Virus record (IMG/VR): IMGVR_UViG_3300028829_004942
Coordinates: 1 to 21,606 of that record
Origin: a virus
Direction: 5' to 3' (one strand)
Length of the DNA: 21,606 bases
The notes below the pieces were generated by a model. That model was not told where the DNA came from. It did no database searches and saw only the letters and a program-made list of their open reading frames with translations. A program made the translations under genes and the position numbers. Every line of letters starts with the position of its first letter. The stretch's first letter is position 1. Shown piece by piece: positions 4,756-11,102 of this stretch.

Positions 4756-5723
4756 TCCTGTACCATGCCTATGCAAACACCCCGTAGTCCGGGCCCGGTA
4801 AAAGGACACGGCTTGGGATGCTTAGTAAAGTCTATCTTAGTTACTGCACCCTCGAGAAGCTTTAGCATAGCGTAATTGTACGCGCCAAAATGCGGAAGCC
4901 CTTCATAGGCTATTGCTGCACCAGAAGTTTCTAGATGCCCGGCAACAAGCCCATCTTCCGTAAACCGTACACAACCTTTACGGTCAGCGTTTTCAGCAAA
5001 AGGCTTGAGCTTGTCTAGTGTCTCATAAAAGCCTTCAGGCAATGGGGTTAAGTTAGCGTTCTCAAAGCCTTTATCGACCAAAGCGTCCACGTCAGGCCAT
5101 TCGGGGTCCAGTAACTGAGTCCGTAGCCAGCGTTCCCCAAAGTAAAACGTAGCCGAGTTTTTAGAGAGAGTTATTCTGGTGGGTTCTTGCCCAATCCGAA
5201 TAAGCGCATCAATCGCGGACGCGGGTATTGTGATGTTAGGCATGGGTTCACCAATCCAATGCTGCCCAATAATGATATTATTAGTCGCATAAATAGACTT
5301 GTCACGGACAAGTACGCCCATAGCCCAAGGCCGAGAAGCATCAACACCAATAAAAGGACGGACTGTACGCAAAGCTTGAACAAATGTACTAGGAAGCTTA
5401 ACATCATTGCCTTCAGGTTTAATGCTACGCAATACGTCGTATTCTTCGGTGCATTCAACAGTTGCCCTAAAAGAGCCAGACCGGACGCTAATACGCCCGG
5501 CCTGTGTTAAATTCAAAACAACTTGCTCGTCACAACGCTCAATGGCCTTAACAAAGGTGTCAGCTTTAGGTGCAGCTTGGACATCTAGGTCAATGGGTGA
5601 GCAAAGAGCTATAGTTCCGTTATAGCTTTTGATATGCCCGTCAGCTATTAGGAAATGTGTAAGCTCCGCTTGGTAATCTTTTTTTGAAACTGCACCCTTT
5701 ACAAACTTAAGCGCCTGCAACAT
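4752..5723 (-). CDS. dnaN: DnaN-like DNA polymerase sliding clamp
   Basis: This ~323-aa protein resembles the shortened beta-clamp homologues of phages. It opens with LQALKFVKGAVSKKDYQAELTHF, followed by repeated beta-alpha-beta-type units such as GRISVRSGSFRATVECTEEY, NITIPASAIDALI and YEGLPHFGAYNYAMLKLL. Clamps encircle DNA and hold the polymerase; the polymerase gene follows directly with a GTGA overlap, which supports the assignment. I prefer the ATG at 5723, which overlaps the upstream gene by 17 bases. An in-frame start at 5765 adds 14 residues encoded wholly inside the upstream gene. No obvious Shine-Dalgarno precedes 5723, so coupling to the upstream gene is likely. Clamp-loader genes are not seen in the window. 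Confidence 0.75.
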   Translation of the reverse strand: MLQALKFVKGAVSKKDYQAELTHFLIADGHIKSYNGTIALCSPIDLDVQAAPKADTFVKAIERCDEQVVLNLTQAGRISVRSGSFRATVECTEEYDVLRSIKPEGNDVKLPSTFVQALRTVRPFIGVDASRPWAMGVLVRDKSIYATNNIIIGQHWIGEPMPNITIPASAIDALIRIGQEPTRITLSKNSATFYFGERWLRTQLLDPEWPDVDALVDKGFENANLTPLPEGFYETLDKLKPFAENADRKGCVRFTEDGLVAGHLETSGAAIAYEGLPHFGAYNYAMLKLLEGAVTKIDFTKHPKPCPFTGPGLRGVCIGMVQE

Positions 5724-6102
5724 TGTAGTTAATCCAGTAGAAGGCGTCATCCAGGTCAGGTACAATCTGTGTCACATGGTACTCAACCCACGGACTCAAA
5801 GGCTTTCCTTGATAAACAAGCACAATGGGCTTACCTAGATCGTATGCGTAGATAATCTCCATACTGGTTCCTGCCGACGGTCCTTGCCAGTTAACCAGAA
5901 GCACATCGCTAAGCGTGATTTCTCTTTTGTCGAGAACTACAATGCTGCTTTGATTCTCTTGCTGTACACCCCTGTAGTCTCTGCGCATCGGATTAAAGAC
6001 GTCAATGCTGTACTGATCAGCAATCTCCGTGGCGTAACTGCGCCAACCCCGGCATTCGTCGTTAGTCTTTTCAAAGATTGGCCCACATAGATAAACACGC
6101 AT
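5707..6102 (-). CDS. Nucleoside 2-deoxyribosyltransferase-like / deoxynucleotide N-hydrolase-like protein
   Basis: This 131-aa protein has the family's landmarks: an N-terminal VYLCGPIF strand-loop (residues 3-10), VFNPMRRDY (~35-43), SDVLLVNW (~65-72) and PSAGTSMEIIYAYDLGKPI (~75-93) with the putative catalytic Glu82. Members either move 2-deoxyribose between bases (NDT) or hydrolyse the N-glycosidic bond of deoxynucleotides (DNPH1/Rcl-like); the sequence does not decide which. It starts at a TAATG overlap with the DpdA stop and overlaps the clamp start by 17 bases, so it is tightly embedded between DNA modification and replication genes. A role in handling bases or deoxynucleotides around 7-deazaguanine modification is inference. 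Confidence 0.75.
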   Translation of the reverse strand: MRVYLCGPIFEKTNDECRGWRSYATEIADQYSIDVFNPMRRDYRGVQQENQSSIVVLDKREITLSDVLLVNWQGPSAGTSMEIIYAYDLGKPIVLVYQGKPLSPWVEYHVTQIVPDLDDAFYWINYNVAGA

Positions 6103-7004
6103 TAGAACAATAGCTCCTGTTCGACAGTAAAACGGTCCGTAGCAGTTTCTGACATCATACTATATGTAACCATGTTGAAGCATTTACGAGTCAAATGCTC
6201 TTTACGCATTCGTGCGATGTCAAAACCAAGGTCTTCAATAATGCCGTAAAGAACGTCCCTGTGCTCCGGTGGCAAGTTATCAATGTGTTTGTCTTTTTCT
6301 TTTAACTGAGGTGCTAGTTCGGACACACTCATCATTCCCCACTTGGGAAAAAACACGTTTCCGATACCACCAAGCTGCACCCAAGACGAAGAATCCACCG
6401 AGTACCAAGGGTACCGCGCCATTAGAGGTATAGATGTTAACCCGAACCCGTGAACTTTCAGCTTTGGTGTACCATCTTTGTGCGTCATCCATTTGCCCCA
6501 AATCCTGTCTAGCCATATGCGCAACTGCGGTGTGGCGATCGGCACCATGCCGCCAATCGTAATGTATTCATAATGCTCCACATAGTAGGCCAAGACTTCT
6601 TCAGGCTCACCGTAGTGATAGCATGGCAGAACACTGATACCTTGTGATTCTATGTATTGCTGATTATGCCAAGTCCCGTCCGCGTCTCCAATAGCATCCA
6701 AAACAGATGCAACCTCTATCCATTCACTGTGCTCTTTGCAGTAAGCGCAGTAGGCATCTATATCCACGTCAATGCCTTGGGTAAAAGAGGAGAAAGCACC
6801 GGAATCTAAAAACACTTTACGTCCAGTTGTTTCCCAGTTGAACTTAACGCGCTCGATCATCCTAGGCTTATGGATGTAATGGTAAGAGTCGAGCAAGTAA
6901 GGAACTTCAAAGACAGCCCGTTTCTCGCGCTCATTAAGACGCGGCCAAAACGGGCTGCCTTCTCGGAAGTCGTTGTAAAGCAATGCTGCGAGATAGACTT
7001 TCAC
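6102..7004 (-). CDS. dpdA: DpdA-like DNA 7-deazaguanine transglycosylase (TGT-related)
   Basis: DpdA proteins are TGT-fold enzymes that replace guanine in DNA with preQ0 or a related base. This 300-aa protein shows the phage DpdA pattern: VFLDSGAFSSF (Asp67, nucleophile or base-recognition site), VLDAIGD (Asp103), YITIGGMVPI, KVHGFGLTS and YSVDSSSW (Asp204). The tRNA-binding zinc motif of bacterial TGT (CxCxxC...H) is absent, as in DpdA. Translation starts at GTG 7004 behind AAAGGA with a 6-base gap. It lies directly downstream of FolE, QueD, QueC and QueE, the preQ0 pathway, which makes the DNA-modification role strong. Which DpdA subfamily, and exactly which base it inserts, cannot be settled here. 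The preceding 39-base gap holds no gene. Confidence 0.88.
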   Translation of the reverse strand: MKVYLAALLYNDFREGSPFWPRLNEREKRAVFEVPYLLDSYHYIHKPRMIERVKFNWETTGRKVFLDSGAFSSFTQGIDVDIDAYCAYCKEHSEWIEVASVLDAIGDADGTWHNQQYIESQGISVLPCYHYGEPEEVLAYYVEHYEYITIGGMVPIATPQLRIWLDRIWGKWMTHKDGTPKLKVHGFGLTSIPLMARYPWYSVDSSSWVQLGGIGNVFFPKWGMMSVSELAPQLKEKDKHIDNLPPEHRDVLYGIIEDLGFDIARMRKEHLTRKCFNMVTYSMMSETATDRFTVEQELLF

Positions 7005-7043
7005 GATGTTCCTTTACGGGTGTACCTTATAGTAACACTTTGT

Positions 7044-7961
7044 TCAGGGACCAAACAACCCTAAGAACTCGGCCCTTGCCGCAGTGTCAGTACGAAATAC
7101 ACCACGCAGAACATTTGTTACGGTCTCGCTACCCTGACGCTTAATGCCGCGACTCTCCATGCACAGATGTCTAGCACGGATAGAAACTGCTGCACCTCTT
7201 GGTTTAAGGTGGTCCATAAGAGCGTCAGCAACTTGCGTCGTTAACCGCTCCTGTACCTGAAGCCTGTTGGCAAATACGTCCAAAAGACGAGACAACTTAG
7301 ATAACCCAACAATCTTTCCGTTCGGGATGTACCCTATGTTTGCTGTTCCAAAGAACGGAGCGAGGTGGTGCTCGCAATGGCTGTAAAAAGGAATGTCTTT
7401 TACCACTATCATTTCGTCGTACGTTTCTCCCCCGTCTTCGAATTCCTTAAGGACGGTTGACGGGTCCACATTGTACCCGGAACTCCAGTGTTGCCAAGCT
7501 TTAGCAACCCGACTGGGGGTTTCCAGTAAACCACCCCGTTTGGGGTTTTCGCCTATTTGTTGGAGCAGGCGAGTTACGGTAACTGTGATGTCGCCCTCTA
7601 CATCTTGGTGCTCCCAAGGAAAGATTACCCAGGAGTCAGCAAACTCCTCAGTGCGTTGCTTGTTCACCAAAGCGTAGAAGGGTGTGGTCGGGCAGATGTT
7701 ATCGTAGTGACGCAATGTGTCACCGCTGTCGATAATATCGTCTAAGATAAAATCAGCTTGGTGCGGATTGCTTCTCATTGTAATGCTCGGCTCTTGTCCG
7801 GCAGTTACAATCTTCAAAATGTAAGACGCCGGTACACCCCCTCGCGGAACAGCAAAACAGGTGAGTTGGGTACGGCCAGGAAATTGCTGGCGCAAAGCTT
7901 TGGCCACGCCTTCTGCGTAAAGCGTCAGGTCGTTAAACTTTAGGTGATGTACTTTGCTCAT
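7044..7961 (-). CDS. folE: Fusion: Gpt-like phosphoribosyltransferase + GTP cyclohydrolase I
   Basis: This is a two-domain protein of 305 aa. Residues 1-118 form a type I phosphoribosyltransferase: FAVPRGGVPAS (36-46), the PRPP loop ILDDIIDSGDT (72-82) and SWVIFPWE (110-117). The last resembles the WIEQPW base-binding segment of E. coli xanthine-guanine phosphoribosyltransferase. Residues ~125-305 are GTP cyclohydrolase I: GENPKRGGLLETPSRV, SHCEHHLAP with zinc ligands Cys196 and His199, SKLSRLLDVFA, and Cys267 in HLCMESRGI. FolE converts GTP to dihydroneopterin triphosphate, the first step toward preQ0. Its usual length (~180-220 aa) is covered by the C-terminal domain alone. The start is ATG 7961 after AAGGAG with an 8-base gap. 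Guanine recycling by the first domain is inference. Confidence 0.93.
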   Translation of the reverse strand: MSKVHHLKFNDLTLYAEGVAKALRQQFPGRTQLTCFAVPRGGVPASYILKIVTAGQEPSITMRSNPHQADFILDDIIDSGDTLRHYDNICPTTPFYALVNKQRTEEFADSWVIFPWEHQDVEGDITVTVTRLLQQIGENPKRGGLLETPSRVAKAWQHWSSGYNVDPSTVLKEFEDGGETYDEMIVVKDIPFYSHCEHHLAPFFGTANIGYIPNGKIVGLSKLSRLLDVFANRLQVQERLTTQVADALMDHLKPRGAAVSIRARHLCMESRGIKRQGSETVTNVLRGVFRTDTAARAEFLGLFGP

Positions 7962-7977
7962 CGGTCAGCTCTCCTTA

Positions 7978-8442
7978 TTATGCGAACAAAGGTTCGTCGA
8001 GCCATTGGCCAAGTACAAACGTCGCAGAGCATTTACGGGTTTCTTCTACAGTCACAGCGGTCAGTATTACGTCTGTGTCAGCCAATACTTCCGGGCCAAT
8101 AGCGAGAACTAGGTACTCCGCCATATTCTCTGCCGTCGGGTTAAACGGCACCGTCACAACGCTCGGCGCTAGTGCCCCCTTACGGGTAAAAGCTTCAAGC
8201 ACTTCCGTATCCTCGTCCCAGAGAATCATTCTGTGGTCCCAGTTGTCTTCAAGCCACTGGCAAAGACGCTCTTTCATTACACTGAAGTCAATAACCCGGC
8301 CGACGCTGTCTAACCCTTTAGCTTCACAGGTAAAATAGATTCTGTAGTTATGGCCATGAAGCCAACGGCACTTGTTCTCGTGCCCCTTTACTCGATGCCC
8401 GGCTGAAAAATCGTGGTACCGAGTTACCTTGTGTGCGCCCAT
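7978..8442 (-). CDS. queD: 6-carboxy-tetrahydropterin synthase (QueD)
   Basis: QueD turns dihydroneopterin triphosphate into 6-carboxy-5,6,7,8-tetrahydropterin, step two of the preQ0 pathway. The 154-aa protein has the family zinc ligands His16 (SAGHR), His29 and His31 (LHGHNY), the catalytic Cys25 (KCRW), and the Asp69-His70 (NWDHRM) and Glu133/134 (TVEET) positions. I chose ATG 8442 because it overlaps the queC stop (TAATG) and has GGAG 7-8 bases upstream; an in-frame start at 8490 would add 16 residues inside queC and lacks support. It ends in two consecutive TAA stops just before the Shine-Dalgarno site of the FolE fusion gene. Confidence 0.95.
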   Translation of the reverse strand: MGAHKVTRYHDFSAGHRVKGHENKCRWLHGHNYRIYFTCEAKGLDSVGRVIDFSVMKERLCQWLEDNWDHRMILWDEDTEVLEAFTRKGALAPSVVTVPFNPTAENMAEYLVLAIGPEVLADTDVILTAVTVEETRKCSATFVLGQWLDEPLFA

Positions 8443-9266
8443 TATAAATCTCCGAGTTTGCGAGCCAATGCAACAACTTGAACGGACCATGAGACACGTT
8501 GTAGTTGTTCCTGGACGAAAGGTTTATTTAAATCATAGATTGGGTTGTCCGGCAAATCGTGGCCAAATAGATGAGCTCTTAGCCACAGCGGGTCAGGGCA
8601 CCCCGCCTCCTCGAAACCTTTCTCCCGTAGCAGTGTTGCATGATCGTTGCCCATTGGCGGGAATTGACCGTCGTAAGCGGTGTGGGTGTATGCCAGAGCT
8701 TCATAGCAGTTTCCGAGGTTCATAGCAAGCTCTACAGTCTTTCGCTTGTCAAGCTTCATTAACGGTGTAATAACCTGTAGCCCAGAAGGGGCTCCGTCTT
8801 CACCAGTAAACGTGCCAAGTGACGAAACCTCAGCAAACGCTGTAATAAACTCTTGGCGACAGTCAGGGTACCCGCCGTAGTCTTCACCAGACACCCCAGT
8901 AATGATGTTCGTAATTCCCAAGTTGTACGCTCGGTTGGCGGCAACCGTTAAAAAAAGTTGGTTGCGCATAGGCACAAAAGTCTTTTCTAGCCCTTCTGGC
9001 AGAACATCGTGGCTATCATACTGTTCGAGTTCGTTATCGGATACAAGAGGCGAGGTGCCTTTAAGGATATCGAAACCGAGGTTTACAAACTCGTGTGACT
9101 CAACACCGGCAAGCACACCCACGATCTTCGCGGCTTGCATCTCAATGTTATGTCTTTGTCCGTAACCAAACGTAATAGCGTGAACTTCGTCGTAATGCTG
9201 CATTGCCCAGTAAAGGCAAGTAGTCGAGTCTTGGCCACCCGACAGAACAACTAAACAGGCACTCAT
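8442..9266 (-). CDS. queC: 7-cyano-7-deazaguanine synthase (QueC), zinc cysteines replaced
   Basis: QueC uses ATP and ammonia to convert 7-carboxy-7-deazaguanine to preQ0. The 274-aa protein has the PP-loop SGGQDS (9-14), TFGYGQRH (32-39), FVPMRNQLFL (97-106) and GVSGEDYGGYPDCRQEF (124-140), all typical. The normal C-terminal zinc site, of the form SCY-x-G followed by CG-x-C-xx-C, is present as a frame but with every cysteine changed: Ala197, Met205, Asp208 and Thr211. The flanking Tyr-x-Gly, Pro-Pro and Arg-xx-Gly-Phe anchors are kept, so this is not a frameshift. The start is ATG 9266 (ATGA overlap with the upstream stop); a GTG four codons earlier sits on its own Shine-Dalgarno and is less likely. 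Confidence 0.93.
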   Translation of the reverse strand: MSACLVVLSGGQDSTTCLYWAMQHYDEVHAITFGYGQRHNIEMQAAKIVGVLAGVESHEFVNLGFDILKGTSPLVSDNELEQYDSHDVLPEGLEKTFVPMRNQLFLTVAANRAYNLGITNIITGVSGEDYGGYPDCRQEFITAFAEVSSLGTFTGEDGAPSGLQVITPLMKLDKRKTVELAMNLGNCYEALAYTHTAYDGQFPPMGNDHATLLREKGFEEAGCPDPLWLRAHLFGHDLPDNPIYDLNKPFVQEQLQRVSWSVQVVALARKLGDL

Positions 9267-9529
9267 TGTTTCTGCCACCCTTTGTCGAATTGGTCAATAG
9301 TTATAATCCGCTTTGGTTCAGCGTCTGCATAATAAGGTGGTTGGATCATAACCCATCGACCACCGACACTTACCGTAGCTTCAAGGGCAGTTCGTCCTAC
9401 CACTACGCCTTCGAGGTTGTCTTGCAGCCGTCTTATATGGTCGCCTACGTTCCAGATGTAAATGCCGTTTGACGTTTCTTCGGGCAGCACTCGATCGTAA
9501 TGCCAGTCCCATTCTGTTCCTGTGCTCAT
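9263..9529 (-). CDS. Conserved-position hypothetical protein (88 aa)
   Basis: I do not recognise this protein. It is acidic and soluble, with a Trp-rich N-terminus (EWDWHYD) and beta-type segments (GIYIWNVGDHIRRLQ, VVVGRTALEATVSVGGRWVMIQPPYY), suggesting a small beta-barrel. It sits inside the preQ0 gene run, joined by ATGA overlaps to queE upstream and queC downstream. It is therefore translated with the pathway and may serve it or regulate it. No metal or nucleotide-binding motif is visible. Confidence 0.7.
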   Translation of the reverse strand: MSTGTEWDWHYDRVLPEETSNGIYIWNVGDHIRRLQDNLEGVVVGRTALEATVSVGGRWVMIQPPYYADAEPKRIITIDQFDKGWQKQ

Positions 9530-10248
9530 GGTAACCCCACAATCTTGTGCATCTGTACACCAAGAATCATTGGTCCAATCCAGTTACCGGTTCCGTTCAT
9601 TACCGCATTAACAGCAGCTTTGTAATTGTTCTCATTTAGCCGGGTACTGTACTCGTCCATAGGGTTGATGTACACCTCGCCAACCCACCCGACCGGTGGC
9701 CTAGCCACAGTTCTGCCCTCGGGCAGCGGGTGGTGCAAGGCACTGATTGGAAGTCCGTCTTCGGCTACGTTGCTTTCACAGATAACGTACTTGTACACGT
9801 GCGCTGCTTTAGCAGTCATAGGGTGTATCTTGGCCGTCTTTGGGCTCACAACAAGAGTAAATCTTTCGTCGTCAAACGGCAGTCCAGTAGACGGAGCAAA
9901 AACACCATTGCTCTCTACTTGAACGTTATAGCCCTGACTTATTAGATGCCAAACTGTTGCGGTAATGTTCTGGCGAAAAGGTTCGCCCCCGGTAATTACA
10001 ATCAAACCAGCGCTGTGCCCGGTATCCCGAACTTGCCGGGCAATCATATCTGGCGTCAGCTTTAGCAAACTGTCCGTGTACTCTGTGTCGCATCCCGGGC
10101 ACTGAAGATTGCAACCGTGCAGTCTAATAAAGACTGCCGGATGCCCGGCATATGGGCCCTCTCCTTGGATAGTTAAAAAGATAGAATGCACGTCCAACGT
10201 GCCTACATCTTCTTGGGCCGGAGGGAGAGGTGTCTGAGTATTAAGCAT
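9526..10248 (-). CDS. queE: 7-carboxy-7-deazaguanine synthase (QueE), radical SAM
   Basis: QueE is the radical SAM enzyme that contracts the pterin ring of 6-carboxy-tetrahydropterin to 7-carboxy-7-deazaguanine. The 240-aa protein has the substrate-side motif FLTIQGEGPYAG (24-35), the 4Fe-4S motif HGCNLQCPGCD with Cys46, Cys50 and Cys53 (CxxxCxxC), and the SAM-binding VITGGEP loop (~88-94). The start ATG 10248 has GAGGA with a 4-base gap. It is the first que gene transcribed, just after a strong hairpin, and couples through ATGA to the 88-aa gene. Extra residues before SIFLTIQ (1-21) are slightly longer than in many bacterial homologues. Confidence 0.95.
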   Translation of the reverse strand: MLNTQTPLPPAQEDVGTLDVHSIFLTIQGEGPYAGHPAVFIRLHGCNLQCPGCDTEYTDSLLKLTPDMIARQVRDTGHSAGLIVITGGEPFRQNITATVWHLISQGYNVQVESNGVFAPSTGLPFDDERFTLVVSPKTAKIHPMTAKAAHVYKYVICESNVAEDGLPISALHHPLPEGRTVARPPVGWVGEVYINPMDEYSTRLNENNYKAAVNAVMNGTGNWIGPMILGVQMHKIVGLP

Positions 10249-10335: not shown

Positions 10336-10614
10336 TTATGCAGCAGCCTTTTCAGGAGCTTTGCGCTTCGAAGCGAGGCCGTGAAACTGCCGCCACCGTC
10401 CATACTGCGTAGCAATCGTGGCCTTGTTCAGCCCCTCTGCTTCGGCCTTTGCCATAACAGCGCCGCGACCAATCGGCTCGCCAGAGGCTTCCGAGAGTTC
10501 ATCGGCAATGGCCCACACACGACCCGTCAATGTACCGTCCTTCGGGCGAGTGATTCCGTTGGCTTGTGGCTGCTTAGGCTTTGCCTCAGCCGCTTCTTCC
10601 TTCTTCTTGGCCAT
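10336..10614 (-). CDS. Small basic HTH-like protein, paralogue 1
   Basis: This 92-aa protein has a Lys/Ala/Glu-rich flexible N-terminus (1-25) and a compact helical domain from TGRVWAIADEL to ATQYGRWRQFHG (~29-78). The domain is shared with the next gene upstream and with the partial gene at 21177: a VWA-type first helix, an EGLNKATIATQY recognition-like helix and a terminal aromatic-basic patch. The composition (Lys-rich tail plus small helical domain) suggests DNA binding, perhaps nucleoid-like or regulatory; the family is not recognised. It starts at ATG 10614 behind a strong AGGAGG with a 5-base gap, so it is probably well expressed. It follows its paralogue after a 62-base gap and precedes a strong hairpin. 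Confidence 0.75.
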   Translation of the reverse strand: MAKKKEEAAEAKPKQPQANGITRPKDGTLTGRVWAIADELSEASGEPIGRGAVMAKAEAEGLNKATIATQYGRWRQFHGLASKRKAPEKAAA

Positions 10615-10676: not shown

Positions 10677-11102
10677 CTACTTACTTTTCTTCCAGCGATA
10701 ATACTGTGTCTTAGCTGTAGACGCATTAACACCGTCGGCAATAGCGCGCTTAACCATTTCGTCACGCATTGCCGTAGTAATCTTTCCTTCTACAGCGTTA
10801 AACATTTCGTCACAAAGAGCCCATACCACCTCAGTAGGCTTACGAACCTTACTGCGATTGGCTGACCGCGAAGAGCCTTCACCAAAGCTTTGCTCGTGAT
10901 ACTCTTCGGCTACACATGGGGAAACTTCTGTGCTGTGCGAGACGGAAGTACGTTCCCAACCGTTCCCTTCGTGACGTGGTACGTGAACAGTTACAGAACC
11001 AAGGCCAACACGTTCTACCCTACCCGCACGCTGCCCGTAAGGACGCCAAGGGTAAATAAAAGTGTCGCCTTCAACAAGTGACCCTAATGGTACGATCTTC
11101 AT
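10677..11102 (-). CDS. HTH-like protein with N-terminal beta domain, paralogue 2
   Basis: This protein of 141 aa has two parts. Residues 1-~50 look like a small beta-barrel (VPLGSLVEGDTFIYPW, GRVERVGLGSVTVHV). Residues ~92-141 repeat the helical module of the downstream 92-aa protein: VVWALCDEMF, RDEMVKRAIADGVN and STAKTQYYRWKKSK. The two are linked by a Ser/Glu-rich stretch. A DNA-binding or regulatory role is inference from the module and the basic C-terminus. The start is ATG 11102 behind GGGAG with a 7-base gap, and a good promoter lies just upstream, so this gene heads the transcription unit that includes the que and dpdA genes. Confidence 0.75.
   Translation of the reverse strand: MKIVPLGSLVEGDTFIYPWRPYGQRAGRVERVGLGSVTVHVPRHEGNGWERTSVSHSTEVSPCVAEEYHEQSFGEGSSRSANRSKVRKPTEVVWALCDEMFNAVEGKITTAMRDEMVKRAIADGVNASTAKTQYYRWKKSK

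Follow-up and report, generated by a model that had tools for sequence, protein, structure and literature searches.

Insertion of preQ0 into phage DNA by DpdA, with guanine exchanged for it, has been described (PMC6884629), and the base-exchange mechanism of DpdA is presumed by analogy with TGT. Phages CAjan and 9g (Hutinet 2019, PMC6884629) have the FolE, QueD, QueE, QueC, and DpdA set in common with the locus studied here; unlike it, they show no phosphoribosyltransferase (PRTase) match, and that work makes no mention of a PRTase. Earlier studies of 7-deazaguanine DNA in phages dealt with the synthesis and insertion of the modified base, and the fate of the guanine expelled by base exchange, potentially thousands per genome, seems unaddressed in the literature searched. 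Within that literature, most subscription papers being outside its scope, we found neither a fusion of a PRTase with FolE nor a link between DpdA and a PRTase.

Among described PRTases, E. coli XGPRT (Gpt; PDB 1a95, 1a96, 1a97, 4jls) and Sulfolobus HGXPRT (5bqp) resemble the domain in our locus in fold, PRPP loop, RGG loop I, purine-site Lys, W-x-x-x-P-W-[ED] segment, and the order of all these elements. In contrast to them, the phage domain has a loop reduced from ~22 to 7 residues, is fused to FolE, and falls below the PF00156 cut-off. The PRTases of PHROG 8995 (phages CP220, phiST, immuto, and MaInes) are homologous to it, and the phages that encode them have 7-deazaguanine genes together with a TGT-fold enzyme, but these PRTases are encoded by separate genes and vary in their loop, which is full in MaInes and phiST and short in immuto and CP220. 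Finally, some phages with DpdX, our name for relatives of the immuto "DNA guanine transglycosylase" (phrog_19058), carry a canonical HGPRT (TIGR01203) at the place of the short PRTase, just before folE and DpdX (L181, L183, L187, L193, L195, L196); unlike our domain, it is full-length and unfused, and its flexible loop is present.

The fusion gene and its neighborhood

The window is the whole 21,606-nucleotide stretch of viral DNA that was analyzed (IMGVR_UViG_3300028829_004942). Its preQ0/DpdA cluster, recognized with Pfam and PHROG, occupies positions 6102-10248, and the gene order is QueE, QueC, QueD, PRT-FolE, DpdA, a nucleoside 2-deoxyribosyltransferase-like gene, clamp, and PolA:

6102-7004, minus strand: DpdA-type DNA guanine transglycosylase, directly downstream of the fusion (PHROG 887, E 1.1e-62)
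7044-7961, minus strand: PRTase-FolE fusion gene, 305 aa (ORF, Pfam/PHROG, AlphaFold2 model)
7047-7589, minus strand: FolE (GTP cyclohydrolase I) domain, residues 125-305 (PF01227, zinc-site residues, fold)
7608-7961, minus strand: Gpt-type PRTase domain, residues 1-118 (PHROG 8995, PDB profile search, fold Z 11-12)
7978-8490, minus strand: QueD, whose start may be an internal ATG at 8442 (PF01242, E 2e-25; PHROG 2389, E 1e-47)
8442-9278, minus strand: QueC (PF06508, E 2.8e-54)
9526-10248, minus strand: QueE-like radical SAM protein (PHROG 2076, E 4e-44)

No QueF was seen in the window and QueC has no amidotransferase (GAT) domain, so dPreQ0 would be the expected product, as reasoned from PMC6884629.

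Other ORFs flank the cluster. Between DpdA and the clamp, 5707-6102 (minus strand) encodes the nucleoside 2-deoxyribosyltransferase-like protein (PF05014, E 4e-12), which has counterparts in only 8 other fetched loci, e.g., L205 and L206, and which could act on (deaza)purine deoxynucleosides. Upstream of QueE, 10336-10614 and 10677-11102 (both minus strand) encode two small related proteins with no Pfam match. The former matches 196 ORFs among the fetched loci and is therefore conserved beside many Que/DpdA clusters; a DNA-binding partner of the modification system is a possible role for these proteins.

We confirmed that the product of 7044-7961 is a real two-domain protein, a domain of Gpt-type PRTase fold followed by FolE. 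The ORF runs on the minus strand from an ATG at 7961 to a stop at 7044, with 305 codons and no internal stop, and an AAGGAG resembling a Shine-Dalgarno ribosome-binding site lies upstream of the ATG. The AlphaFold2 model of the whole 305-residue protein, built from an alignment of 60 sequences, reached a pLDDT of 94. A sequence-only reading of this gene had taken residues 125-305 for a complete FolE, and this holds: PF01227 matches residues 128-302 (E 1.8e-71, 239.7 bits against a cut-off of 27), model residues 119-305 adopt the FolE fold (Z 24.9), and C196, E197, H198, H199, and C267, which comprise the CEHH motif and the Cys/His/Cys zinc site, are invariant in the 60 sequences. A Pfam QueF match over residues 202-259 was rejected, as the T-fold is common to both families and this is not a QueF. 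In another locus (L016:6001-7740, on the same contig as L035), an intein-like insertion splits the FolE of the fusion directly after FYSHC in the CEHH motif.

We propose, with a probability of roughly 60%, that this protein is a FolE with an N-terminal, loop-shortened Gpt-type PRTase domain that serves DpdA base exchange by converting the released guanine to GMP. FolE would start preQ0 synthesis from GTP, and QueD, QueE, and QueC would complete it, a route that, like preQ0 insertion by DpdA, is established from other work; DpdA would insert preQ0 into the phage DNA and release one guanine with each exchange; with PRPP bound, the PRTase domain would turn that guanine into GMP, removing the by-product of DpdA; and GMP and GDP kinases, of the host or the phage, would return the GMP to the GTP pool used by FolE. 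If true, this recycling loop pays back purine spent on preQ0. The sequence-only reading had suggested such a loop, and it is partly supported. In its favor are the predicted fold, the conservation of the active-site residues, the presence of DpdA in the same loci, and an HGPRT that takes the place of the PRTase in a second phage group, each shown below by sequence comparison or modeling. Against it speak the lost flexible loop, the 48 of 79 DpdA loci that lack the domain, and a bacterial clade in which the fusion occurs and no DpdA was detected; hosts, moreover, usually have guanine PRTases of their own. We infer that the domain is probably catalytic, that guanine is its likely substrate, and that the product would return to FolE through the GMP and GDP kinases.

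The PRTase domain and its shortened loop

Family searches place the N-terminal domain among PRTases at some distance from the curated models. PHROG 8995 ("phosphoribosyl transferase") matches window residues 71-119 with an E value of 2.6e-5, and the top PDB-sequence match of a profile made from 12 homologues is XGPRT (E 6e-5). With Pfam, the N-domain of the window protein has no match of its own (none to PF00156 at 0.1), and the NCBIfam XGPRT model NF006613 gives 23.7 bits against a cut-off of 138. PF00156 misses most fused domains, and for this reason absence was never judged with PF00156 alone; PHROG 8995 was run alongside, and itself missed the fusion of phage MMDA13. The comparison with Gpt and other type I PRTases for which the sequence-only reading had called was made with the model: residues 1-123 have the fold of type I 6-oxopurine PRTases, matching E. 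coli and Y. pestis XGPRT with Z 11.4-12.0 (several entries) and Sulfolobus HGXPRT 5bqp with Z 11.4 (rmsd 2.9 Å over 114 residues).

The PRPP motif with its acidic pair (DDxxDSGxT), the loop I RGG, and the purine-site Lys with the aromatic segment are all present, and ILDDIIDSGDT, PRGG, and WVIFPWE lie where they had been placed from the sequence. The counts below refer to 71 nonredundant fusions:

7836-7847, minus strand: loop I, P39-R40-G41-G42 (R40 67/71, G41 70/71, G42 71/71)
7752-7772, minus strand: flexible-loop remnant, residues 64-70, ~22 residues reduced to 7 (RGG-DD spacing; model strands)
7716-7745, minus strand: PRPP loop LDDIIDSGDT, residues 73-82 (D74, D75, and G80 71/71; D78 and T82 70/71)
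7659-7661, minus strand: K101, the counterpart of Gpt K115, which contacts purine O6/N7 (69/71; alignment to Gpt)
7611-7631, minus strand: base-binding segment WVIFPWE, residues 111-117 (W111, P115, W116, and E117 71/71)

Active-site residues are thus 94-100% conserved in this set, against a domain mean of 48%. PRGG and ADxFxDDI belonged to the patterns used for retrieval, so that their conservation in this set is partly selected for. An alignment of 12 sequences whose members were not fetched by these patterns has nearly the same invariants, and nearly all of its 12 invariant columns fall on known PRTase active-site motifs. In addition, RGG, DDI-D-G-T, and W-PWE are 100% conserved in 41 nonredundant stand-alone PRTases, which were fetched only through their DpdX neighbor.

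Alignment to Gpt gives R37-G38-G39, D88/D89/D92, K115, and W134 as counterparts (the central stretch of the E. coli Gpt sequence used for numbering was confirmed against PDB 1a95). The likening of WVIFPWE to the guanine-binding WIEQPW of Gpt was borne out, as residues 111-117 align with WIEQPWD at 134-140. Window D78 aligns with Gpt D92 and human HGPRT D137, a residue that contacts purine N7; preQ0 has a carbon at that position, so a purine such as guanine should fit this site better than the 7-deazapurine preQ0.

The likeness to Gpt stops at the flexible catalytic loop, which in type I PRTases connects strands 2 and 3 and which this domain nearly lacks. The spacing from RGG to DD is 31 residues in the window and most often 26-27 in the fusions, against 48 in E. 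coli Gpt, and the model has a connection of seven residues between strands 59-63 and 71-77. This is the main reason why the domain is ~34 residues shorter than Gpt. The flexible loop closes the active sites of type I PRTases; with most of it deleted, catalysis may be poor or absent. If the domain is active, it poses the problem of how a type I PRTase manages without its catalytic loop. The claim of a Gpt-like domain therefore stands for the XGPRT fold and the conserved PRPP/purine site and not for length and loop: by alignment and model, the N-domain is PRTase-like with a conserved site but no textbook Gpt. The notion that the short loop goes with DpdA and the full loop with its absence was discarded, as phiST and MaInes combine a full loop with a TGT-fold relative.

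A loop deletion that leaves the ligand-binding motifs in place would also suit a sensor of PRPP or purine nucleotides that acts allosterically on FolE, for example by turning on preQ0 synthesis when PRPP or guanine is high. PurR uses the PRTase fold without catalysis, the fusion partner catalyzes the committed first step, and FolE is allosterically regulated elsewhere (by GFRP in animals, also among the PDB matches). We nevertheless consider a sensor improbable: the short PRTase also exists as a stand-alone gene, and a canonical HGPRT occupies its slot at 9 loci, which fits an enzyme better. In addition, the domain has kept K101, W111, and E117 of the base site as well as D78, the general base.

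Company of the fusion in phages and bacteria

The same fusion, sought in other DpdA-encoding phages, proved to be widespread. An IMG/VR scan with the N-domain returned 223 relatives, and 78 of the best 80, which include some near-duplicates, are fused to FolE. Among the fused loci of these best 80 of 223, 74 have no contig end within the fusion or shortly behind it, and all 74 have DpdA. FolE matches were obtained in 393 GenBank phage records, and in 33 of these the match covers the full length, N-domain included; the fusion phages comprise Nipunavirus (NP1, PaMx25, JG054, DoCa3), 42-kb Stenotrophomonas/Pseudomonas phages, Vibrio phages of the VpKK5, 033B, and 1.117.O types, Sphingomonas phage MMDA13, and Variovorax phages. 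DpdA was found in 13/13 whole records checked (8 from GenBank, 5 from IMG/VR). A fusion occurring mostly without DpdA would have spoken against a tie between the two; in phages the fusion occurs near-exclusively with DpdA.

The reverse does not hold. Among 79 DpdA loci close to that of the window, the fusion is present in 26, a FolE that lacks the PRTase in 48, and neither in 5, and PF00156 and PHROG 8995 together found no PRTase in the DpdA phages 9g and CAjan or in nt-1. DpdA therefore works without the domain in the 48 loci, 9g, and CAjan; the PRTase domain seems to need the company of DpdA, and DpdA does not seem to need the domain. In favor of the tie, no PRTase was found in HVTV-1 and NCTC12673, which have 7-deazaguanine DNA and no DpdA. 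At one locus (L042:5992-7035), the PRTase and FolE are adjacent separate genes, and at another (L060:5878-7017) a similar extra linker joins them in one protein; the two loci look as if the fusion had been split or formed recently.

Outside phages, the fusion is carried by 12 related bacterial genomes of ~1 Mb, one of them titled Candidatus Dadabacteria (L122:7018-9406 and L289-L296 are such sites). Where the context is readable, the gene is chromosomal and lies beside two PTPS genes, in L122 also beside an SDR gene, a context that is suggestive of a pterin pathway. No DpdA was found in the two genomes searched (G010, G011). In all 10 aligned bacterial sequences (at least eight of them distinct), loop I reads PKNG in place of PRGG, and the PRPP loop is kept. 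This clade could be a DpdA-free offshoot in which the PRTase function has decayed or changed. In L121 and L122, two adjacent QueD/PTPS paralogues precede the fusion, and the viral L108, with a related fusion, has one. The 8 loci of the bacterial genome scan include several that are probably viral contigs in bins, L121 and L122 being chromosomal; conversely, the PRTase matches of MT835497 and similar "Bacteriophage sp." records were set aside, since they resemble bacterial contigs. One 57.5-kb contig, L104, has a lone short PRTase and no match to DpdA or DpdX.

A general salvage of 6-oxopurines from host nucleic-acid breakdown, which would raise GTP for FolE and replication independently of the guanine released by DpdA, is suggested by the bacterial clade in which DpdA is undetected, by the fusion to FolE, and by the HGPRT replacement, which would suit any 6-oxopurine. 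We hold it to be unlikely, slightly more so than a sensor. DpdA or a DpdA-like TGT-fold enzyme is present in essentially every adequately covered phage record, with L104 as the main exception; among the 33 GenBank records with the full-length fusion, DpdA was present in every one examined; and the bacteria without detected DpdA have lost the RGG of loop I.

DpdX phages and the HGPRT swap

Stand-alone relatives of the N-domain occur in Flavobacterium immuto, Campylobacter CP220/F379, Cellulophaga phiST, and Brevundimonas MaInes phages, and no DpdA of the phrog_887 type was found in these. A DpdX profile matches a protein in immuto (E 1e-159), CP220 (2e-61), phiST (5e-11), and MaInes (5e-5). The AlphaFold2 model of DpdX (pLDDT 91) has the TGT fold, with Z 17.9 to archaeal TGT 1iq8 and 17.5 to DpdA 7ui4. 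When the DpdA (phrog_887) profile was compared directly with that of DpdX in hhalign, no match was significant, and the link between DpdA and DpdX rests on the predicted fold. Three proteins formerly called hypothetical belong to this TGT-fold family, namely, Brevundimonas MaInes_00850 (L024:12861-13661), Cellulophaga phiST gp42 (L123:32547-33326), and Campylobacter CP220 gp56 (L124:2676-3452); they are probable DNA guanine transglycosylases and make up a set of TGT-fold enzymes that had gone unrecognized in these phages.

DpdX loci are ordered QueD, QueE, PRTase, FolE, DpdX. A PRTase lies nearby in 72 of the 80 IMG/VR DpdX loci, of the short type in 63 and a canonical HGPRT in 9, and 7 of the 8 loci without one are shortened. 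At the 9 loci, which represent about six distinct sequences, the hypoxanthine-guanine PRTase sits immediately upstream of folE. With TIGR01203 (cut-off 150), L193 and L195 score 154-155 bits, L183 scores 150.7, and the others 149, so that 3 of the 6 tested are above the cut-off. HPRT is otherwise nearly absent from phages: among 50,697 phage records, 18 have close relatives, and most of these 18 are fragments or lack annotation. We regard the replacement by HGPRT as the strongest functional evidence found here: by gene content, the slot would serve to salvage a 6-oxopurine, for which the guanine that DpdA sets free is the simplest candidate.

More broadly, base-exchange phages may have a dedicated guanine-recycling step in which a PRTase joined or adjacent to FolE converts the guanine expelled by DpdA to GMP, a step for which two types of PRTase and two TGT-fold enzymes would have come into use. 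We see the odds for this wider proposal as even. As a PRTase is tied to DpdA in two phage groups, the question of the guanine's fate becomes directly testable, and the PRTase is a possible marker for base exchange rather than insertion at the dNTP level.

Insertion at the dNTP level would follow if the PRTase acted on preQ0 itself, with the preQ0 ribonucleotide ending up as a modified dNTP. PRTases acting on preQ0-type bases have been proposed in tubercidin and toyocamycin biosynthesis (PMC6112128), and the MaInes and immuto clusters encode nucleotide kinases, with an RNR beside the PRTase in MaInes. We had been led to this idea by MaInes, which has a PRTase, an RNR, a dNMP kinase, and no annotated DpdA, and we dropped the dNTP route because MAINES_00850 is a relative of DpdX (BLASTP E 1e-6; profile E 5e-5). 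All tested phages with a stand-alone PRTase carry a TGT-fold enzyme, HVTV-1 and NCTC12673, which are thought to use another route (one by modified dGTP is mentioned for Campylobacter phages in PMC6884629), have no PRTase match, the N7-contacting Asp is conserved in spite of the missing N7 of preQ0, and the HGPRT replacement argues for a normal purine, making a preQ0 PRTase very unlikely. Just as little probability falls to a structural or docking module that, for example, recruits FolE to DpdA or DNA, which the loop deletion and the constant DpdA neighborhood would allow, since the PRTase motifs would then be relics, and it is unlike relics that several catalytic and ligand residues are kept in 71/71 sequences when the domain averages 48%; stand-alone and HGPRT versions also exist. 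Conversion of the released guanine to GMP remains our preferred reading, and a connection between PRTases and queuosine genes has already been noticed by annotators, as the F379 protein is labeled "purine phosphoribosyltransferase / queuosine biosynthesis protein".
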